From: Methylococcaceae bacterium
GTDB lineage: Bacteria > Pseudomonadota > Gammaproteobacteria > Methylococcales > Methylomonadaceae
NCBI GenBank assembly: GCA_006844585.1
Contig: SPJM01000243.1
Span: 1 to 32,108 of the forward strand
DNA length: 32,108 nt
Direction: 5' to 3'
Of this stretch, positions 43 through 31,712 are shown in pieces (position 1 is the first letter of the stretch; each line of letters opens with the position of its first letter). Below the pieces are notes generated by a model that did no database searches, was not told where the DNA came from, and saw nothing but the letters and a program-made list of their open reading frames with translations. A program made the translations under genes and the position numbers.

Positions 43-1842
43 ATGAGCATCGCCAAATTAAAAAAAGTAACTCTGTTCGGTTTATATACCGAAAAAGAAA
101 AACTGCTAAACAATTTGCAGGAACTGGGGTTAATGCATTTGGCGTCGCTCAAGCCGCAGGCGACGGAAATGCAGCTTAAAACACCTCCGATTCACACCTT
201 AAAAGCCTTAAAATTTCTCCTCGATTGTCCACAAAAAAGGCATCCGCAAACCGACGAGAACGATTTTGACATCGAATATTATGTACACTATGCCTTAGCT
301 GTTAAACAAAATCTCAGCGAAGCATCCGACCAACGCGATGCCTTAATCGCCCGTATCAAAGAAGTCGAACCCTGGGGTGATTTTACATTCCCGCAAGCGG
401 AGCAGCTAGCGGGCCGGAAATTTTGGTTTTATATCGTGCCGGTCGGTAAAATGGCCGCCCTGACCACGGAATTGGTCTGGCAAGTGGTGCACCGCGACCA
501 CCGTTATGCTTACCTGGTAGTGATCTCGAAACAAGAACCCGCCGCCGACCAATTCCCGGTTCCAAGAACTCATATGGGCAAACATTCCCTGTCGGATTTA
601 AAAAAACAGCTTAATGCAATAGAGCTGAAGCTGGAGGACTTAAGAGCGGAACAAGCCTCCTTGACGCGCTGGATTTATTTAATCAGTAAAAACCTGGCCG
701 CCGTCGAAAACAAAGCCGGTTTAATGGAGGCCGCTAATAATGCCCTGGACCTTGACAGTTTGACGCTGGTGCAGGGTTGGGTGGCGGAAACCGACCTGCC
801 CCGGATACGCCAATTTACTGAGCAAAACCGAATAGCCATGTTAGCGGCCGAACCCAGCGAATCCGATGCTCCCCCTACTCTTTTGGATAACCCGGCAAAA
901 CTGCAAGCCGGTGAAAAACTGATCGGTTTTTATCAAACGCCCGGTTACTGGGAATGGGACCCGGCCATTTTGGTGTTTTTTTCTTTCAGCGTTTTTTTTG
1001 CGATGATCATTTCGGATGCCGGTTATGCTTTTTTACTAGCCTTGATTATTCTTTTCAGTTGGAAAAAAATCAGCCGTTCGCCATCCGCCGATAAATTTAA
1101 AAATCTGCTGATCAGCATGACTGCCGCCGCGATGGTCTGGGGCATGTTAATCGGTAGTTATTTCGGCTTTAAACCCGCCGATTTTTCCTTATTAGGTCAA
1201 TTCAATGTTATTGACCTGCATCATTTCGACAATATGATGCGCCTGACTATCAGCCTGGGCGTCATTCATTTAAGCGCGGCCATTTATTTCAAAGCCTTTG
1301 CCGGCCGCCGCAACGCCACTCAGAAAATTGAAGCCTTCGGCTGGCTGTCGATGTTATGGGGGGGACTATTATTATGGTATCAGCAAAGTTTGGCCGCAGA
1401 CCATAGCGACTTAATGACCATAGCGGAAATTATGATCAGTCTCGGCGTCGGTTTGGTTTTCTTATTCAGCAGTCGCCGCTCGATTAAAACGCCGCTAGAC
1501 GTGTTATTGAAAATATTAGACGGATTGCGCAACCTGGCCGGAATCACCCGTTTATTCGGCGATGTGCTCAGCTATTTGCGCTTATTCGCCCTGGGTTTGG
1601 CCGGGGCGTCTCTCGCCTATACTTTTAATGACCTGGCTTTGCGCACCCGGGAAATTGAAGGCTTGGGATTGCTCTACAGTATTTTAATCATGCTGTTAGG
1701 ACATTTGCTCAATTTACTGTTAAGTTTGATGGGCGCGGTGCTGCACGGTATGCGGCTCAATTGTATCGAATTTTTTAACTGGGGATTATCTGAGGAAGGC
1801 TACCCTTTCAAACCCTTTTCCAAGAAGGATATCAAACAATGA
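43..1842 (+). CDS. ntpI: V-type ATP synthase subunit I (a subunit)
   Basis: This is the membrane stator subunit of a V/A-type rotary ATPase, which forms the ion half-channels next to the K ring. The 599-residue length is somewhat short for the family (often about 600-660). Residues 1 to about 290 are hydrophilic and helical (cytoplasmic arm). The membrane domain begins near W303 and has about seven or eight hydrophobic segments. The family signature FGDVLSYLRLFALGLAG is present, and R513 in SYLRLF is the expected essential arginine facing the K-ring carboxylate. The C-terminus has the family's H..R..IEFF pattern. The stop overlaps the start of subunit K (ATGA), so translation is coupled. The upstream flank is only 42 bases with no clear ribosome site, so the promoter and probably further subunit genes lie outside the window. 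Confidence 0.93.
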   Translation: MSIAKLKKVTLFGLYTEKEKLLNNLQELGLMHLASLKPQATEMQLKTPPIHTLKALKFLLDCPQKRHPQTDENDFDIEYYVHYALAVKQNLSEASDQRDALIARIKEVEPWGDFTFPQAEQLAGRKFWFYIVPVGKMAALTTELVWQVVHRDHRYAYLVVISKQEPAADQFPVPRTHMGKHSLSDLKKQLNAIELKLEDLRAEQASLTRWIYLISKNLAAVENKAGLMEAANNALDLDSLTLVQGWVAETDLPRIRQFTEQNRIAMLAAEPSESDAPPTLLDNPAKLQAGEKLIGFYQTPGYWEWDPAILVFFSFSVFFAMIISDAGYAFLLALIILFSWKKISRSPSADKFKNLLISMTAAAMVWGMLIGSYFGFKPADFSLLGQFNVIDLHHFDNMMRLTISLGVIHLSAAIYFKAFAGRRNATQKIEAFGWLSMLWGGLLLWYQQSLAADHSDLMTIAEIMISLGVGLVFLFSSRRSIKTPLDVLLKILDGLRNLAGITRLFGDVLSYLRLFALGLAGASLAYTFNDLALRTREIEGLGLLYSILIMLLGHLLNLLLSLMGAVLHGMRLNCIEFFNWGLSEEGYPFKPFSKKDIKQ

Positions 1843-2300
1843 ACGAACTGATGATGACATTAGGCTGGCTGGGTATCTATGCTGCAATGGCCTTTGGCGC
1901 AATCGGCAGCATTTACGGCTGCGCTCTGGCCGGTCAGGCCGCCATCGGCGCCATGCTGGAAACCGACGGCGGACACGGCCGTTACATCGGCATTTCGGTG
2001 ATGCCCTCTTCGCAAGTTATTTACGGCATTGTGGTGATGTTGACTTTGCAAAGAGAAGTCACTCCGGAAAATGCCGCCCCTTTGTTCAGCATCGGCATCT
2101 TATGCGGCCTCACTTTATTTTACAGCGCCTTACTACAAGGCCGAACTTGCGCCTCGGCGATCACCGCCATCAAAGCCAAACCGGAAATATTCGGCTTAAC
2201 CCTGGCCCCGGCCACCATCGTTGAAGGTTTCGCCGTTTTCGCATTCGTTTTTGCGTTGGTTTTAGCCGGTTCTATCCCTCAATCGCCCTTATTAAACTGA
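1839..2300 (+). CDS. ntpK: V-type ATP synthase subunit K (proteolipid ring)
   Basis: This is the rotor-ring proteolipid. It has 153 residues with four membrane helices arranged as two fused hairpins, as in other bacterial V-type K subunits (about 140-160 residues). The ion-carrying glutamate is E129, in the fourth helix (PATIVEGFAVFAF). Helix 2 contains PSSQ (S58, Q59) where Enterococcus hirae NtpK has PGTQ, and Q100 sits in a LQGR stretch like its Q110. Together with E129 these match the side-chain Na+ ligands of that ring as I recall them, so Na+ coupling is inferred. The first hairpin lacks a carboxylate, as usual for V-type rings. The start overlaps the stop of subunit I by four bases, and the stop overlaps the subunit E start by one base (TGATG). 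Confidence 0.92.
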   Translation: MNELMMTLGWLGIYAAMAFGAIGSIYGCALAGQAAIGAMLETDGGHGRYIGISVMPSSQVIYGIVVMLTLQREVTPENAAPLFSIGILCGLTLFYSALLQGRTCASAITAIKAKPEIFGLTLAPATIVEGFAVFAFVFALVLAGSIPQSPLLN

Positions 2301-2992
2301 TGACTGAAGAGCAATCCGGGGAATTTGCTTCCCACGGCGTTGAAGAGCTGATAGACCGCTTGCGTAATGAAGGCGTCGAAGCCGGTGAACAACAGGCGGA
2401 ATTGATTATCCAACAGGCCCAAAAAGAAGCCGAACAAATTAAAGCGCATGCTGCTGCGGAAGCCGATTTCATCAAGAATAACGCCAAAATGGAAGCCGAT
2501 GCGCTGATCAAGGCCGGGCAAGATGCTTTACAACTGGCCGCCCGCGACGCCCACTTGAAACTGAGAGAAACCATCATGCAACGCTTTAGCGATGAGGTGC
2601 GCAGGCTGGTCGGCAAGATCATGGAACCGGAAGCCTTTATGGAAAAATTAATCTTGCAAGTAGCGGCCCGCGTCAGTGATCAAACCGATTTACCCGCGCA
2701 AGAAAACTTCATATTAAAGCTGCCGGAAGGCGTGATCGGTATCGAAGAGTTGCGCCGCAATCCGGAAGATCTCAGCGAAGGCACTTTATCGCATTTCGTA
2801 TTATCGGTAATGGCCAATCTATTGCGCGACGGCATCGAATTAAAAACCGATAAGCAGTTCGAACGCGGCATCAAAATCTATTTGAAACAAGGCGATGTGG
2901 AAGTGGACTTGACCGATCAAGCCATTGCCGCCGTATTGTTAGAACATCTGCAACCCCGTTTCCGCGCCTTGCTGGAAGGAATCGTCAAATGA
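2300..2992 (+). CDS. ntpE: V-type ATP synthase subunit E (peripheral stalk)
   Basis: This 230-residue protein has the subunit E layout. A long charged coiled coil rich in Glu, Lys, Ala and Gln spans about residues 5-110 (around QQAQKEAEQIKAHAAAEA), followed by a mixed alpha/beta C-terminal domain that caps the A3B3 head. Subunit E links the catalytic head to subunit I as part of the peripheral stalk. The assignment rests on position in the operon and the coiled-coil plus globular layout; sequence motifs in this family are weak. Translation is coupled to K upstream (TGATG) and to the DUF2764 gene downstream (ATGA). In most bacterial operons of this kind subunit E is the first gene, whereas here it follows K. 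Confidence 0.85.
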   Translation: MTEEQSGEFASHGVEELIDRLRNEGVEAGEQQAELIIQQAQKEAEQIKAHAAAEADFIKNNAKMEADALIKAGQDALQLAARDAHLKLRETIMQRFSDEVRRLVGKIMEPEAFMEKLILQVAARVSDQTDLPAQENFILKLPEGVIGIEELRRNPEDLSEGTLSHFVLSVMANLLRDGIELKTDKQFERGIKIYLKQGDVEVDLTDQAIAAVLLEHLQPRFRALLEGIVK

Positions 2993-3705
2993 AGCAAGAT
3001 CAATATGTCATGCTGATGGCCAGTTTGCCGCCCCATGCGCCTGATTTATTCGCCGCCAAACAACCGCCGATTTCCCGCATCAAACTCAATCAACGGCTGA
3101 CCATGCTGGAGCCCGAACACCGTGAAAAATTAGATTTAATCGAAAACCTGGTTCACTGGGATCGTCTCGCCATCGCCACCAGCGACGACCAAATAATTCA
3201 ACGGGGCAAACAAACTTTAAACGCCATTAACAATGATTTGATGAAAAAAATCATTTCATGGCGATTGGAAAAACGTTCAATGGTCGCCGCCTTAAGACGT
3301 AAACAGCTAGATTTAAGCGCGCCTGAACCCGGTCAAAAATGGGGCTTTGGCGAGCGTTGCGAAACATTAGTTCAACACTGGGAAGAACCCGCTTTCGGCC
3401 TACAGCGTCAATTTCCCTGGCTGGAAGAAGCGGAGCGTTTAATGAATACAGGCAAACATCTGGATTTGGAGCGCATGCTGTTACATCAGGTTTGGGTATT
3501 TTATGACCGCCTCTCAAGTCATCATTTTTTTGATTTTGAAGCAGTGATTATCTATGTATTGCGTTGGGATGTAATCGACCGCTGGTCGCGTTATGATGAC
3601 GAGAAGGCGGCGGCTCGTTTGCAAAGTATGAGCGATAGTGGTTTAGGCGAATTCAAAACACTGTTTCCGGAAACATTAGGCGAGGAGCAAACAGCATATG
3701 GATAA
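2989..3705 (+). CDS. DUF2764-type V-ATPase operon protein
   Basis: This is a 238-residue soluble, mainly helical protein beginning with a short hydrophobic patch (YVMLMASLPP) followed by PPISRIKLNQRL. The opening and the position between E and A match the DUF2764 protein found at this place in V-ATPase operons of Chlamydia, spirochaetes and Bacteroidetes. In those operons no canonical subunit C gene is present, so this protein is the probable replacement for C/d, the rotor-to-ring adaptor; that role is inference. It overlaps subunit E by four bases and subunit A by eight bases, so it belongs to the same translationally coupled unit. I see no catalytic motif. Confidence 0.75.
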   Translation: MKQDQYVMLMASLPPHAPDLFAAKQPPISRIKLNQRLTMLEPEHREKLDLIENLVHWDRLAIATSDDQIIQRGKQTLNAINNDLMKKIISWRLEKRSMVAALRRKQLDLSAPEPGQKWGFGERCETLVQHWEEPAFGLQRQFPWLEEAERLMNTGKHLDLERMLLHQVWVFYDRLSSHHFFDFEAVIIYVLRWDVIDRWSRYDDEKAAARLQSMSDSGLGEFKTLFPETLGEEQTAYG

Positions 3706-5527
3706 TGCAAAAATCAGCGCCCATGTGATTATGGTTCAGGATGATCTGGTGACCATTAAAGCCGTTAATGATCCTGACCGCAGTATGCCGTTAAAAAAAA
3801 ATGCGGTCATTTATATTTTACCCAGCCGCACCGATAAGCGGCGACAAGAAAGGTTGAAAGCGGAAATTTTGCGGATACACGGCAATACCGCCGACGCTCA
3901 GGTCTTCGAAAGCACGTTAGGAGTCGCGGTCGGCGACCCGGTTGAACAAACCGAAGAAATGTTATCGGTGAGTTTAGGGCCCGGATTGCTAGGTCAGGTT
4001 TATGATGGCTTGCAAAACCCCTTGGAAAATATGGCGGCCGAGTTCGGCTATTTCCTACCTCGCGGCATCGACGCCGACGCCTTGGATCGTTATCAAAAAT
4101 GGTCTTTTATTTCCTGCGTGCGCAGCGGCGACAAGCTGGTCGCCGGCGACGTTATCGGCACTGTGCAGGAAGGCCGTTATACGCATAAAATCATGGTTCC
4201 GTTTGATGAGCCGGATCAAGTCGCCATCGTCTGGATCATTGAAGATAATGTCACCGTTGATACCCCCATCGCCCGCATACGCAATCTGATTACCGGCCAT
4301 GAAAAAAACCTCTCGCTGATGCAGAAATGGCCGGTTAGACAATCCATCCCCGAACATTTACTGAGAAAACGCAGCTCCCATCGGCTCTATCCTGATCAGC
4401 CGTTAATGACCACCATGCGCATTATCGATACCTTTTTTCCCATTGCGCTGGGCGGCACAGCCTGTATCCCCGGCCCGTTCGGCGCTGGTAAAACGGTATT
4501 ACAAAGTTTGATTTCGCGATTTTCTTCGGTAGACCTTGTTATCGTGGTCGCCTGTGGCGAACGCGCCGGAGAAGTGGTGGAAACCATTTCCGAATTTCCG
4601 AAAATGATCGACCCGAAAACCGGCAGCGCCTTGATGGATAGAACCATTATTATCTGCAATACTTCATCAATGCCGGTGGCCGCCCGCGAGGCTTCTATAT
4701 ACACCGGCATAACCCTGGGCGAATATTACCGACAAATGGGGTTTAACGTCTTGCTATTAGCTGACTCCACTTCGCGTTGGGCGCAGGCAATGCGGGAAAC
4801 TTCCGGACGCATGGAGGAAATCCCCGGCGAAGAGGCCTTTCCGGCCTATTTGGACTCTTCCATCCGCTCTATTTATGAACGCGCCGGAGTCATCCGCAAT
4901 AATCACGACGAAACCGGCAGCCTGACCATGATCGGCACGGTCTCCCCGGCCGGCGGCAATTTTGAGGAACCGGTGACCCAGTCTACTCTCAATACCGTCA
5001 AAACCTTTATCGGACTCAGCGCTGATCGCGCTTATAAACGCTTTTATCCCGCCGTCGACCCGTTGATTTCCTGGTCACGCTATTTAAAACAATTACAACC
5101 CTGGTTTGAAAAACACATTGAAGACGGCTGGACGCGAAAAGTTCAGGAAATGATTGAATTGTTGCATCAAGGCGATGCCGTCTTGCAGATGATGCAGGTA
5201 ACCGGCGAAGAAGGCGTGACATTGAAAGATTATATTATTTATCAAAAAGCGCTGTTCCTGGATATGGTTTATCTGCAACAAGACGCCTTTGATAAAGTAG
5301 ACGCCACATCGCCGATGAAAAGACAACAACAAACTTTCAGCGCGCTTTATCGACTTATTAATTTGAATTATGCCTTTAATGATAAAGCTCAGGCTTTGGA
5401 CTATTTCACCCGCCTGACCGGCTTATGCAAAAACTTCAATTACGCCCCGGAGAATTCGCCGGAATATCAAAACCTGTTGCAGCAGATTGAAGAATTGGCA
5501 GAGGATATGGGGGTTGTTAAACGATAA
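3698..5527 (+). CDS. ntpA: V-type ATP synthase catalytic subunit A
   Basis: This is the nucleotide-hydrolysing subunit of the V1/A1 head. It has 609 residues, close to the usual 580-600. The Walker A loop GPFGAGKT lies at residues 259-266, with K265 as the phosphate-binding lysine. The N-terminal part has SLGPGLLGQVYDGLQNPL (residues 92-109), followed by the non-homologous insertion typical of A subunits (about 115-215). The arginine and signature region LLADSTSRWAQAMRE and the GEEAFPAYL stretch are intact, so the subunit should be active. It starts inside the end of the DUF2764 gene. It is the last gene of the cluster here: no subunit B or D follows, only a repeat-bearing gap and an unrelated gene. 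That is unusual, because A is normally followed directly by B. Confidence 0.96.
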   Translation: MDNAKISAHVIMVQDDLVTIKAVNDPDRSMPLKKNAVIYILPSRTDKRRQERLKAEILRIHGNTADAQVFESTLGVAVGDPVEQTEEMLSVSLGPGLLGQVYDGLQNPLENMAAEFGYFLPRGIDADALDRYQKWSFISCVRSGDKLVAGDVIGTVQEGRYTHKIMVPFDEPDQVAIVWIIEDNVTVDTPIARIRNLITGHEKNLSLMQKWPVRQSIPEHLLRKRSSHRLYPDQPLMTTMRIIDTFFPIALGGTACIPGPFGAGKTVLQSLISRFSSVDLVIVVACGERAGEVVETISEFPKMIDPKTGSALMDRTIIICNTSSMPVAAREASIYTGITLGEYYRQMGFNVLLLADSTSRWAQAMRETSGRMEEIPGEEAFPAYLDSSIRSIYERAGVIRNNHDETGSLTMIGTVSPAGGNFEEPVTQSTLNTVKTFIGLSADRAYKRFYPAVDPLISWSRYLKQLQPWFEKHIEDGWTRKVQEMIELLHQGDAVLQMMQVTGEEGVTLKDYIIYQKALFLDMVYLQQDAFDKVDATSPMKRQQQTFSALYRLINLNYAFNDKAQALDYFTRLTGLCKNFNYAPENSPEYQNLLQQIEELAEDMGVVKR

Positions 5528-27765: not shown

Positions 27766-29856
27766 CTATACCAAACCATAATTAGCAACAATTTCATCCG
27801 CTGTTAACGGCTCATGGAAAAAAAATCCTTGTAATTCATCACAACCATGTTTTGTTAAAAATTCCGCTTGGACTTTATTTTCCACGCCTTCCGCGACTAC
27901 TTTCAAACCTAAGTTGTGGGCAAGAGATATGGTTGCGGTTACGATAGCCGCATCGCCTTTATCTCCAGCGATATCATGAATAAATGATCGGTCAATTTTA
28001 AGGGTATGCGCTGGAAATCGTTTTAAATACGCGAGTGAAGAATAGCCCGTCCCGAAGTCATCTATCGCCAGTTTTAATCCTTTTTTGTTGAATTCCTGCA
28101 TAATCGCTAATGAGACCGCAGGCTCATCCATGATTGCGCTTTCGGTGATCTCAAATTCTAAAGCTGCCGGGTTAACCGCAAACTCTTGCATATGCCGCTC
28201 GATAGATGACAACAATGTATCTTGCTTAAATTGCCTGGCCGATAAATTAATTGAAACCGGTAAATCACTGTTCAAATGCTGACTCCATAGATTAATTTGC
28301 CGACAGACTTCGCATAACACCCAATTTCCTATCTCTTCGATTTGGCCCGTGTGTTCGGCAATCTCAATAAATTCCACCGGCGATACTTGACCGAGTTTTT
28401 CATTTCGCCAGCGTAGCAAGGCTTCTACGCCGACCAGCTTCCCGGTTTTGGCATCCAGTTTAGGCTGATAAAGTAGACTCAGTTCATTTTCACTGATGGC
28501 TTTACGCAAGCCCATTTCTATCTCCAGATGCCGTATATTCTTTTCTTCCAGATTTTTATCAAAAAAAGCATATCGGCCTCGGCCTTGGTCTTTAGCATGA
28601 TAAAGCGCGGTATCGGCGTCTTTGGTGAGGGCTTCAATATTATCAGCATCATTCGGAAAAATAGCGATGCCCAAACTGGTTGAGATAAACAATTCATGGT
28701 TATCCAGATTAAGAACGGTTGAAAATTGCTTTAATATTTTTTCAGCGACGAACCCGGCGGATTCCGGTTTATCGATATCCGAGAGGATGATCGCAAATTC
28801 ATCCCCTCCTAATCGGGCAATGGTTTCACGCTCCCTTAAAACAGCTTTAATACGCTTACCGACTTCGATCAATAGTTTGTCGCCGATCACATGCCCCAAG
28901 GTATCATTAATTGATTTAAAGCGATCCAAATCCAGGTAAATTAAGGCAAAAATGCGTTTATTCCGTTTTGCGCTGATAATCGCCCGCTCCATTCTTTCCT
29001 GGAACAGGGTTCTATTAGGCAGATGCGTTAAGGGATCGTAATAGGCCAGACTTTTGATTAATTCTTCTGAATCTTTACGGTCGGTAATATCATGCGCGAC
29101 CGAGACATAATGGGTAATTTGGTTAAGATTGTTTTTGATAGAGGCAATAGAATGCAAGCACCAAAATAATTCACCATTCTTTTTTCTATCCAATAATTCG
29201 CCCTGCCAGGGTCTTCCTTGGCGAATTGTGCCCCATAAATGCTGATAGGTTTCTTTTGAGGTCAAGTTAGACATCATTTTCCTAGGATTATAGCCGATAA
29301 GCTCATCTTTCTCATAGCCGGTCACTTTATACATAGCCGGATTACAGTATTCAATATTGCCTTCATAATTAGTGATCATGACCAGATTGGGACTGTATTC
29401 TATAGCCAGCGAAAACTTTTTTAATTCCTGTTCGGTGATTTCATGCTTAACAATTTCATCTTTTAATTGTTCGTTCACCTTTTTTAATTGAGATGGGCTG
29501 GGAATAATCAATATCTGCGGAATCAAACGCCATAGAAAATAGGCTGTAAAAATCGAAACGATAGCGGTCAATGCCTTAATATAAGCAGACAACCAATATA
29601 ATGGCTTCCATACAGTTACAATCGCAATTAAATGCGTTGCGCCGCACAGCAGAATGAATAATCCGAACAAATAGAATACAGTTCCAAATTGAATATCCTC
29701 CCTTTTTTTAACGATATAGAACAAGAAAAAAGGAATGGAAAAATAGGCCAAGACGATAATTAAATCAGCGAGCACATGCGACCAGAGCAATCCCGACTCC
29801 CAAAGATAACATTGGCCATGCGGCATAAATTGAGAGGGGAAAATAAGATCCGACAT
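27766..29856 (-). CDS. Ethylene-receptor-like membrane domain fused to PAS-GGDEF-EAL
   Basis: The 696-residue protein has four parts. Residues 25-117 are three membrane helices resembling the ethylene-binding domain of plant ETR1 and cyanobacterial relatives, with LAYFSIP and LLCGATHLI. D31, Y38, I41, C71 and H75 correspond to ETR1 D25, Y32, I35, C65 and H69 at identical spacing; the last two are its copper ligands. Residues 145-262 are a PAS domain, 263-435 a GGDEF domain (GGDEF 350-354) and 445-696 an EAL domain (E478, DD 599-600, K620, E656). Both catalytic motifs are intact, so it may make or degrade cyclic di-GMP. The inhibitory RxxD site reads RERE. ATG 29856 follows an AGG site; an in-frame GTG lies two codons earlier. 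Confidence 0.9.
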   Translation of the reverse strand: MSDLIFPSQFMPHGQCYLWESGLLWSHVLADLIIVLAYFSIPFFLFYIVKKREDIQFGTVFYLFGLFILLCGATHLIAIVTVWKPLYWLSAYIKALTAIVSIFTAYFLWRLIPQILIIPSPSQLKKVNEQLKDEIVKHEITEQELKKFSLAIEYSPNLVMITNYEGNIEYCNPAMYKVTGYEKDELIGYNPRKMMSNLTSKETYQHLWGTIRQGRPWQGELLDRKKNGELFWCLHSIASIKNNLNQITHYVSVAHDITDRKDSEELIKSLAYYDPLTHLPNRTLFQERMERAIISAKRNKRIFALIYLDLDRFKSINDTLGHVIGDKLLIEVGKRIKAVLRERETIARLGGDEFAIILSDIDKPESAGFVAEKILKQFSTVLNLDNHELFISTSLGIAIFPNDADNIEALTKDADTALYHAKDQGRGRYAFFDKNLEEKNIRHLEIEMGLRKAISENELSLLYQPKLDAKTGKLVGVEALLRWRNEKLGQVSPVEFIEIAEHTGQIEEIGNWVLCEVCRQINLWSQHLNSDLPVSINLSARQFKQDTLLSSIERHMQEFAVNPAALEFEITESAIMDEPAVSLAIMQEFNKKGLKLAIDDFGTGYSSLAYLKRFPAHTLKIDRSFIHDIAGDKGDAAIVTATISLAHNLGLKVVAEGVENKVQAEFLTKHGCDELQGFFFHEPLTADEIVANYGLV

Positions 29857-29895
29857 AATCACACCTGTTTTTAAGCTATTAATCTCTGACTTTTA

Positions 29896-30161: not shown

Positions 30162-30177
30162 TGGCACGAAGTCTGCT
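30162..30177 (+). promoter_or_regulatory. Sigma54 (RpoN) promoter of nrtA
   Basis: TGGCACGAAGTCTGCT matches the -24/-12 consensus TGGCACGNNNNTTGCW at every fixed position but one, and the GG and GC are exactly ten bases apart. Transcription should begin near 30188, just before the first leader hairpin. Sigma54 promoters on nitrate assimilation genes are normally switched on by NtrC under nitrogen limitation. Confidence 0.75.
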
Positions 30178-30190
30178 TTAAAGATTACAG

Positions 30191-30228
30191 CTTCTCAACG
30201 TAGAGAAAACACACGTCCGTTGCCGGAC
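30191..30228 (+). promoter_or_regulatory. ANTAR-type antitermination hairpins in the nrtA leader
   Basis: The first hairpin is TTCTC-AACGTA-GAGAA (30192-30207). Its six-base loop has A at position 1 and G at position 4, the signature recognised by ANTAR antiterminators. Seven bases later GTCC-GTTGCC-GGAC (30215-30228) gives a second six-base loop with G at position 4 but G instead of A at position 1; it could also close as a 5-bp stem with a TTGC loop. A terminator follows at once. The order matches the leaders controlled by NasR (Klebsiella) or NasT (Pseudomonas, Azotobacter). The regulator gene is not in the window. Confidence 0.6.
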
Positions 30229-30238
30229 TCTCAAAGAC

Positions 30239-30291
30239 AAAGGCGTCTAACCGATTTTTCCCCTCATAAAAATCAGTTGACGCCTTTTTTT
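30239..30291 (+). terminator. Leader intrinsic terminator upstream of nrtA
   Basis: Arm 30239-30259 pairs with arm 30268-30287 (AGGCGTC with GACGCCT and GATTTTT with AAAAATC, with one bulge and one mismatch) around an eight-base loop. Seven Ts follow (30285-30291). It ends 29 bases before the nrtA start and 60 bases after the predicted transcription start, so it should stop nrtA transcription unless bypassed. Confidence 0.85.
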
Positions 30292-30320
30292 GTTTGTAAC
30301 ACTTTAATAGAGATAAGAAC

Positions 30321-31712
30321 ATGAATAGATTTGGATCATTAACCGCTACGTTGCTGACTGGCGCAGCAGCGGCATTGAGTCTTACGGTTTCGTCACAGGC
30401 TCTTGCCGTTGAAGACCTGGAAAAAGAAGACTTAAAATTCGGTTTTATCAAATTGACCGATATGGCGCCGTTAGCCATTGCCTATGAAAAAGGTTATTTC
30501 GAAGATGAAGGTTTGTATGTGCAAGTTGAAGCGCAAGCTAACTGGAAAGTATTATTAGACCGAGTGATCAACGGCGAGTTGGACGGCGCGCATATGTTAG
30601 CCGGTCAACCTTTGGGCGCAACCATCGGTTTCGGCACCCAGGCGCATATTATTACCGCTTTCAGCATGGACTTGAACGGTAACGGCATCACCGTTTCCAA
30701 CGATATTTGGAATCAAATGAAACCGCATGTGCCTTTGATGGCCGACGGCAGACCGCTGCATCCGATTAAAGCCGATTCCTTAAAGCCGGTAGTGGAAAAA
30801 TACAAAGCCGAAGGCAAACCTTTTAATATGGGTATGGTTTTCCCGGTTTCCACCCATAACTATGAATTACGTTATTGGTTAGCTGCGGGTGGCATCAAAC
30901 CGGGTTATTATGCGCCGCCGCAAGATACCAGCGGGCAAATTGATGCAGACGCATTATTATCGGTAACGCCACCACCGCAAATGCCTGCGACTCTGGAAGC
31001 GGGTACGATTTATGGCTACTGCGTCGGCGAACCGTGGAATCAACAGGCGGTTTTCAAAGGCATCGGGGTGCCGGTTGTCACCGATTATGAAATCTGGAAA
31101 GACAATCCAGAGAAAGTTTTCGGGGTCAGCAAAACATGGGCGGATAAATATCCAAACACCCATATGGCGGTCGTTAAAGCCTTAATCCGCGCTGCCATGT
31201 GGTTAGATGCGGATAACAACAAAAACCGTCCGGAAGCGGTAAAAATCCTGTCTGAAAGTAAATATGTCGGCGCCGATTACGATGTTATCGCCAACAGTAT
31301 GACCGGTACTTTTGAATACGAAAAAGGCGACAAGCGTTCCTTGCCGGATTTCAACGTATTCTTCCGTTATAACGCCACTTATCCATTCTACAGTGATGCG
31401 ATCTGGTATTTAACGCAAATGCGCCGTTGGGGACAAATAAACGAATTCAAGCCTGATTCCTGGTACATGGACATTGCGAAAAAAGTTTATCGCCCTGACA
31501 TCTATATGGCGGCGGCTAAAGAGTTAATCGCCGAAGGCAAAGCCAAAGCCAGCGACTTTCCGGGCGCAGGCGAAACCGGCTTTAAACCGCTTCAAACACA
31601 CTTTATCGACGGCATTAGTTACGACGGCATGAAACCAAACGAATACCTGGCCAAATTCTCCATCGGTCTGAAAGATAAGCAAAAAGTCGTCGGCGGAAAA
31701 ATTGTCGAGTAA
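30321..31712 (+). CDS. nrtA: Nitrate-type ABC transporter substrate-binding protein (NrtA/CmpA family)
   Basis: This 463-residue periplasmic binding protein of the NrtA/CmpA/SsuA class has a signal peptide cleaved near ALA-V (residue 29). The mature part begins with [30 protein letters not shown], the typical opening, and includes [18 protein letters not shown] and [12 protein letters not shown], both conserved in NrtA/CmpA. It has no lipobox, unlike the cyanobacterial proteins. Substrates in this family are nitrate/nitrite or bicarbonate. Nitrate is favoured here because the gene sits behind a sigma54 promoter and an antitermination leader, the pattern of nitrate assimilation operons. NrtB follows after a 197-base spacer carrying a strong hairpin. 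A NasS-like sensor role is unlikely because the protein is exported. Confidence 0.9.

Follow-up and report, generated by a model that had tools for sequence, protein, structure and literature searches.

The stretch of DNA analysed here (the window, 32,108 nucleotides from a Methylococcaceae bacterium) carries a gene for a protein in which an ETR1_N-type ethylene-binding domain (EBD) is followed by PAS, GGDEF and EAL domains (Table 1). Pfam confirms the open reading frame and the domains reported for it in a first-pass annotation of the sequence, in which the minus strand of the gene had gone unstated. Elsewhere in the window, a run of V/A-type ATPase genes recognized by Pfam comprises V_ATPase_I, a proteolipid with two ATP-synt_C stretches, one gene without a Pfam match, DUF2764 and the catalytic subunit. 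The strongly folded leader of an NMT1-like gene (which starts at 30321) is attenuator-like, with a 5-bp stem closed by a 6-nt loop, a 5-bp stem closed by a 4-nt loop, and a long stem followed by U7; we presume that it might exert NasR/NasT-type control over a transporter of the nitrate type. An Rfam search over the whole window, this leader included, returned nothing at gathering scores.

Table 1. Features of the window (residue numbers refer to the 696-aa EBD-PAS-GGDEF-EAL protein)
Feature	Position	Strand	Basis and remarks
Whole gene, EBD-PAS-GGDEF-EAL protein, from ATG	27766..29856	-	696 aa; alternative GTG start at 29862 (27766..29862)
ETR1_N-type EBD, residues 8-120	29497..29835	-	Pfam ETR1_N 23-116; own EBD profile 8-120
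Predicted membrane helix 1, residues 21-51 (D31, Y38, I41, P42)	29704..29796	-	AlphaFold, block pLDDT 90-98
Predicted membrane helix 2, residues 58-83 (F67, I68, C71, H75)	29608..29685	-	AlphaFold and alignment
Predicted membrane helix 3, residues 87-117 (K94 = ETR1 K91)	29506..29598	-	AlphaFold and alignment
C71...H75, predicted Cu(I) ligands (= ETR1 C65/H69)	29632..29646	-	Alignment; ligand role of C65/H69 from the available part of PMC11819568
Predicted signalling helix, residues 121-138, joining EBD to PAS	29443..29496	-	AlphaFold
PAS domain, residues 148-257	29086..29415	-	Pfam (PAS_9 match 157-259)
GGDEF diguanylate cyclase domain, residues 271-427	28576..29046	-	Pfam E=6.2e-49 and alignment; GGDEF intact; I-site RERE (RxxE)
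EAL phosphodiesterase domain, residues 450-683	27808..28509	-	Pfam E=3.2e-72 and alignment; 9/9 catalytic residues
Leader of NMT1-like gene	30175..30320	+	Strongly folded, z=-4.68
V/A-type ATPase gene run	43..5527	+	Pfam

The first-pass annotation had called for a profile search of the N-terminal part, and hmmscan against Pfam places this part in the ethylene-receptor N-terminal family (ETR1_N, PF25487; E=1.4e-35; 121.9 bits, above the curated cut-off of 27; profile positions 2-95 of 97 covered). The GGDEF motif is unbroken at residues 350-354, and the EAL set, whose catalytic residues we take to be those of RocR-type EAL domains, is complete (E478, N537, E569, E572, D599, D600, K620, E656 and Q676, or ENEEDDKEQ). 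The fusion of an EBD to PAS-GGDEF-EAL with both catalytic motifs whole, as originally proposed, is thus borne out by Pfam, the alignment and the AlphaFold model, and a kinase-type output as in plant and cyanobacterial ethylene receptors is absent from the protein according to Pfam, GGDEF-EAL standing in its place. These sequence data support an ETR1_N-family sensor fused to an apparently active GGDEF/EAL enzyme, which likely has both c-di-GMP synthesis and breakdown activities. The Pfam E-values, together with the conserved relatives described below, exclude a chance resemblance.

Alignment with the N-terminus of Arabidopsis ETR1 (39% identity over the domain) pairs D31, Y38, I41, C71 and H75 with ETR1 D25, Y32, I35, C65 and H69, and the five pocket positions and their numbering had been given correctly in the earlier annotation. 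The same alignment pairs P42, F67, I68 and K94 with P36, F61, I62 and K91, and all eight of the ETR1 residues that we take to form the pocket (D25, Y32, I35, P36, F61, I62, C65 and H69) are identical in the window protein. In the available part of PMC11819568 seven ETR1 residues are described as required for ethylene binding and C65 and H69 as the copper ligands.

An AlphaFold model of residues 1-139, built with 56 aligned sequences (mean pLDDT 88.6), contains the four helices listed in Table 1; confidence is low in residues 1-12, with pLDDT under 50 at 1-3 and 6-12. The modelled fold corresponds to the three expected membrane helices and a linker helix. A sequence search of the EBD against solved structures gave zero matches up to E=10, and a Foldseek comparison of the model with the PDB listed 116 matches up to E=10, the best 50 of which include no match at E<=0.001; hence we claim no structural parallel.

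Judged by sequence, the sensor half and the enzyme half each belong to known families. The PAS-GGDEF-EAL half aligns with positions 41-621 of 623 of the DibA model (E=1.4e-180), with a score of 601.7 bits versus a curated cut-off of 980; the DibA, PRK10060 and DosP models describe PAS-bearing GGDEF-EAL c-di-GMP enzymes, and the window protein falls below the curated cut-offs. To our knowledge, the sensors of these three are not of the ETR1_N type. On the sensor side, AzoEtr1 of Azospirillum brasilense (EBD-PAS-histidine kinase) likewise has an EBD followed by a PAS domain, with D35, C75 and H79 corresponding to D31, C71 and H75, but it works through a histidine kinase and a response regulator, where the window protein has GGDEF-EAL. 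High-affinity ethylene binding and an effect on biofilm are reported for AzoEtr1, whose D35A and C75A variants do not rescue (PMC11819568, available part). SynEtr1/UirS (Slr1212) of Synechocystis is also a bacterial EBD protein, although with a GAF photosensor and a histidine kinase output, and the accessible portions of PMC6682694 and PMC5812497 report that its EBD binds ethylene. Arabidopsis ETR1, which has the eight pocket residues and K91 in common with the window domain, differs from it in its kinase-type output.

A scan of named genomes gave at least 536 confirmed relatives, 80 of which were kept (Cyanobacteria, Proteobacteria, Verrucomicrobia and others). A second set, from the host's order, comprised the 140 best-scoring listed places (the host genome aside), to which four from two congeners were added; another eight on the list, of lower score, and all unlisted places were left out. 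Removal of six duplicates from 227 EBD proteins left 221, whose domains were assigned with profiles based on the fetched proteins and that of the window; apart from the window protein, nine GGDEF proteins were re-checked with Pfam, and the kinase-type assignments rest on our own profiles. The outputs are histidine kinase in 73, GGDEF-EAL in 57, GGDEF only in 5 and no assigned output in 5 proteins of the order set, and 63, 9, 1 and 7, respectively, in the named set, with the window protein as one more. The statement in the first-pass annotation that plants and Synechocystis couple this domain to a histidine kinase stands, but a GGDEF/EAL output is not unusual among the relatives, as GGDEF and EAL occur together in 67 of the 221 EBD proteins and GGDEF without EAL in six more. 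After regrouping by lineage, in which six named Methylococcales-type loci were transferred to the order group, a GGDEF output is found in 68/147 proteins of the host's order (74 histidine kinases, 5 without an assigned output) versus 5/74 outside it (62 histidine kinases, 7 without an assigned output), a contrast that is indicative, since the two sets were sampled differently and kinship is uncorrected.

The putative copper ligands are nearly invariant among the 221 proteins (His in 221, Cys in 220), and the other pocket positions are conserved to a similar degree (Y32 in 220, I35 in 206, F61 in 221, I62 in 220), in a sample gathered partly by His/Cys motifs or best profile score. The bacterial forms carry a PHGxCxxW motif (217/221) with a single Cys, at the position of ETR1 C6, whereas ETR1 has both C4 and C6.

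Eleven relatives (693-701 aa) align with the window protein over nearly full length (50-54% identity over 676-689 aa). Their mean identity to it is 0.59 in the EBD and in GGDEF, 0.52 in PAS, 0.47 in EAL and 0.44 in the linker. All 12 proteins share, without exception, the eight pocket residues as well as K94 and the GGDEF motif. Three of the eleven (L138, L139 and L141) have a degenerate EAL set together with an intact EBD pocket and GGDEF. Two further proteins close to this group, L160 and L163, end after GGDEF. Across 76 aligned GGDEF-bearing proteins (three of them from the family of genome G352, see below) every one of the 76 has an unbroken GGDEF motif, twice as GGEEF; 65 have a complete EAL set, 5 a degenerate one and 6 none. 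Of the outputs, c-di-GMP synthesis is thus the one that varies least. Assembly or frameshift effects may account for some of the 11 incomplete EAL cases; in L117, for instance, the frame reaches the end of its stretch. At L257 (4561-7082, minus strand), in the one-contig genome of the congener G157, a 515-aa EBD-PAS-PAS-GGDEF frame overlaps a frame with the end of GGDEF and EAL, that is, the gene is split or frameshifted.

On a tree of the EBD the output label changes 14 times, and at least six of these changes are forced by well-supported branches. This rules out a single origin of the fusion without later swaps, and the joining of an EBD to c-di-GMP enzymes is recurrent through domain swapping. 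The place of the window protein itself in this tree is unsure because of the few columns and its long branch (0.69). A division into clades of opposite polarity, which had been built on regex-based counts of GGDEF variants and I-sites, was rejected; these counts ('AGDEL' in 18) depended artefactually on the place where the regex matched and were superseded by the alignment-based counts. As regards the genomic neighborhood, five neighbours of the gene in the window were tested, and none has a counterpart in 17 compared relative loci at E<=1e-10. In nine relative loci the gene has an NAD synthase frame close by, together with a frame of 1165 aa that Pfam does not recognize (search carried out on L148), a neighborhood that says nothing about function.

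Positions 25 and 91 of ETR1 change together. The pairs found in the 221 proteins are D/K (201), D/R (5), E/K (3), N/D (7), N/E (4) and H/L (1), i.e. Asp or Glu with Lys or Arg in 209/221, Asn with Asp or Glu in 11 and His with Leu in one. On a tree built without columns 25 and 91 there are three changes at each position, and two independent pairs of changes lie on well-supported branches, both concordant, which is too few for significance. The window protein has D/K, the form found in ETR1 and AzoEtr1 according to the available part of PMC11819568, which also cites a model where D25 keeps H69 in position and forms a bond with K91, a residue involved in output; the paired change fits this modelled contact. 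Asn at position 25 is accompanied by Asp or Glu at position 91 in 11/11 cases (e.g. L221, L217, L258 and L259), in both kinase and GGDEF-EAL proteins; such receptors may have a different ligand or signal.

The host genome (3.68 Mb in 376 contigs, 97.35% complete, estimated contamination 4.04%) contains one ETR1_N match and one match to subunit A of pMMO/AMO. The host's order includes Methylobacter and Methyloglobulus. In genome family f1 identical proteins are shared with Methylobacter MAGs (G223, G131 and G243) and with Methyloglobulus (G096); in family f4 genome G103 shares an identical protein with a Methylococcaceae MAG. The suggestion in the first-pass annotation that the host might be a methanotroph is favoured by the pMMO/AMO subunit A gene and by the kinship with Methylobacter and Methyloglobulus, but the best NCBIfam name for subunit A is bacterial AmoA (402.5 bits, cut-off 290), although the joint methane/ammonia model is passed as well; methanotrophy of the host is for this reason likely and only inferred. 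Because the genome contains 37 GGDEF-matching and 8 PilZ-matching stretches, c-di-GMP is probably in use in this organism.

ETR1_N is found in 131/251 genomes (32/48 genera) of the host's order and in 29/398 genomes (18/213 genera) of a sample of the phylum that includes the host genome; the corresponding figures for AMO are 207/251 and 4/398 genomes. Within the order, ETR1_N occurs in 115/207 AMO-positive versus 16/44 AMO-negative genomes, a weak link (p=0.03, kinship uncorrected), and the congeners G143 and G179 have AMO and no ETR1_N match, which speaks against the explanation that we prefer. In the family of G437, which lies outside the host's class and probably holds alphaproteobacterial methanotrophs, ETR1_N is present in 7/11 AMO-positive versus 21/138 AMO-negative genomes (Fisher p=0.0008, kinship uncorrected, three AMO-positive genera); the 10 receptor loci of these seven AMO-positive genomes include no GGDEF output (9 kinases, 1 EBD only), which also weighs against the preferred explanation. 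The family of G352, presumably ammonia oxidisers (the AMO search covered G352 alone), shows no enrichment, with ETR1_N in 5/81 genomes. Enrichment therefore tracks the groups that resemble methanotrophs rather than AMO itself. Four of the five loci of the G352 family were fetched: three encode EBD-PAS-GGDEF-EAL proteins (L274, L275 and L276, assigned by Pfam) and one a kinase, so the c-di-GMP output extends beyond methanotrophs.

We propose, with a probability of roughly 0.6, that the window protein is a Cu(I)-dependent membrane ethylene receptor that controls c-di-GMP. This explanation rests on the identity of all eight pocket residues, their conservation in the 11 relatives, the AlphaFold helices, the catalytic motifs and the taxonomic enrichment; copper, ethylene, signal path, polarity and physiological role are inferred. 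By analogy with ETR1, SynEtr1 and AzoEtr1, the three-helix N-terminal domain would hold Cu(I) via C71 and H75, and ethylene would bind to that copper. The signal would pass through the D31-K94 contact and helix 3 to the helix 121-138, and from there through PAS to the GGDEF-EAL pair. The receptor without ethylene would be in the signalling state and favour c-di-GMP synthesis, and ethylene would switch it off or tip it to breakdown, whereupon c-di-GMP and attachment would decrease. In a methanotroph, such a receptor could give warning of ethylene, which methane monooxygenase would turn into toxic epoxyethane; the toxicity of ethylene to methanotrophs through epoxyethane is described in the available part of PMC11507031.

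For c-di-GMP itself, the polarity is a guess by analogy, the argument being that ethylene and receptor disruption act alike: both lower biofilm in Azospirillum (PMC11819568, accessible text), in Synechocystis the same effect as that of UirS loss is ascribed to ethylene (PMC5812497, accessible text), and slr1212 is negatively regulated by ethylene according to the portion available of the review PMC7700396. It stays a guess because the end effect on biofilm differs between species, ethylene lowering it in Azospirillum and raising it in Synechocystis (PMC11819568, same portion). The same text describes pocket mutants of AzoEtr1 and SynEtr1 as non-functional, and pocket mutants that signal yet fail to turn off for plants.

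Several other explanations have to be weighed against an ethylene receptor. It is unlikely that the EBD is now a mere membrane anchor or dimeriser and that PAS is the working sensor: a PAS domain does lie between EBD and GGDEF in 75/76 proteins (L038 has GAF in its place) and the window EBD sits on a long branch (0.69), but among the orthologs conservation is higher in the EBD than in PAS (0.59 vs 0.52), the eight pocket residues are kept in 12/12 proteins, and the AzoEtr1 pocket mutants are non-functional as described in the part of PMC11819568 cited above. A very improbable and strongly disfavoured possibility is an artefact, i.e. chance resemblance or a contaminant contig; the 376-contig assembly with its 4.04% estimated contamination and the fact that 0/5 tested neighbours recur in 17 relative loci would be in keeping with it, but the match to the curated ETR1_N family has E=1.4e-35, and full-length relatives are found within the same genome family.

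The remaining two explanations retain the copper and differ in the signal. Cu(I)-site chemistry allows other small gases, and the EBD might sense one of them (CO, acetylene or propene), with ethylene as a mimic; we regard this as rather improbable, given that the pocket has the same residues as in ETR1 and that ethylene is a high-affinity ligand of AzoEtr1, a related receptor (PMC11819568, available part). We find equally improbable a membrane copper gauge, in which Cu(I) is held but the signal coupled to c-di-GMP is the copper supply itself, in an organism whose main enzyme would need copper. In favour of such a gauge, the predicted copper ligands are conserved (His 221/221, Cys 220/221, in the partly motif- or score-picked sample), and ETR1_N is enriched in the host's order and in the AMO-positive genomes of the G437 family. 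Ammonia oxidisers also need copper, however, and the putative ammonia oxidisers are not enriched (5/81); furthermore, Y32, I35, F61 and I62 are about as conserved as the copper ligands, and a characterised bacterial member binds ethylene, as reported in the available part of PMC11819568. The count in the putative ammonia oxidisers bears on the proposed ethylene receptor as well. AMO also oxidises ethylene, so the role proposed here predicts enrichment in ammonia oxidisers too, and the 5/81 runs counter to this prediction.

The available part of the review PMC7700396 mentions many proteobacteria and cyanobacteria with ethylene-binding domains and varied outputs, some of them not found in plants. 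In the open-access literature, as far as its incomplete coverage goes, we found no description of an EBD-GGDEF-EAL protein and no report of ethylene receptors in methanotrophs. The word 'receptor' is absent from the text of PMC11507031, and in the accessible parts of PMC6515357, PMC10653868, PMC8396549 and PMC12172448 'ethylene receptor' is confined to reference lists or to a table entry on a plant.

We tentatively suggest, as a possibility that is still doubtful, that receptors dedicated to ethylene are retained in separate lineages of aerobic methanotrophs because these cannot avoid ethylene as a toxic co-substrate of their methane monooxygenase, and that in the Methylococcales-type lineage of the host, in which roughly half of the examined receptors feed into c-di-GMP (GGDEF output in 68/147), ethylene would decide whether a methane-oxidising cell remains attached or departs. 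The pairing of positions 25 and 91 agrees with a modelled contact that is said to take part in receptor output, in a domain for which no solved structure was found here. If the proposed reading is true, c-di-GMP would be a simple reporter for ethylene perception by a bacterial EBD, and the protein would represent kinase-free ethylene signalling, in which a plant-type sensor acts directly on a bacterial second messenger. It would also provide a specific, testable sensor behind the ethylene sensitivity of methane oxidation, which is reported for soils and rice fields in the available part of PMC11507031.
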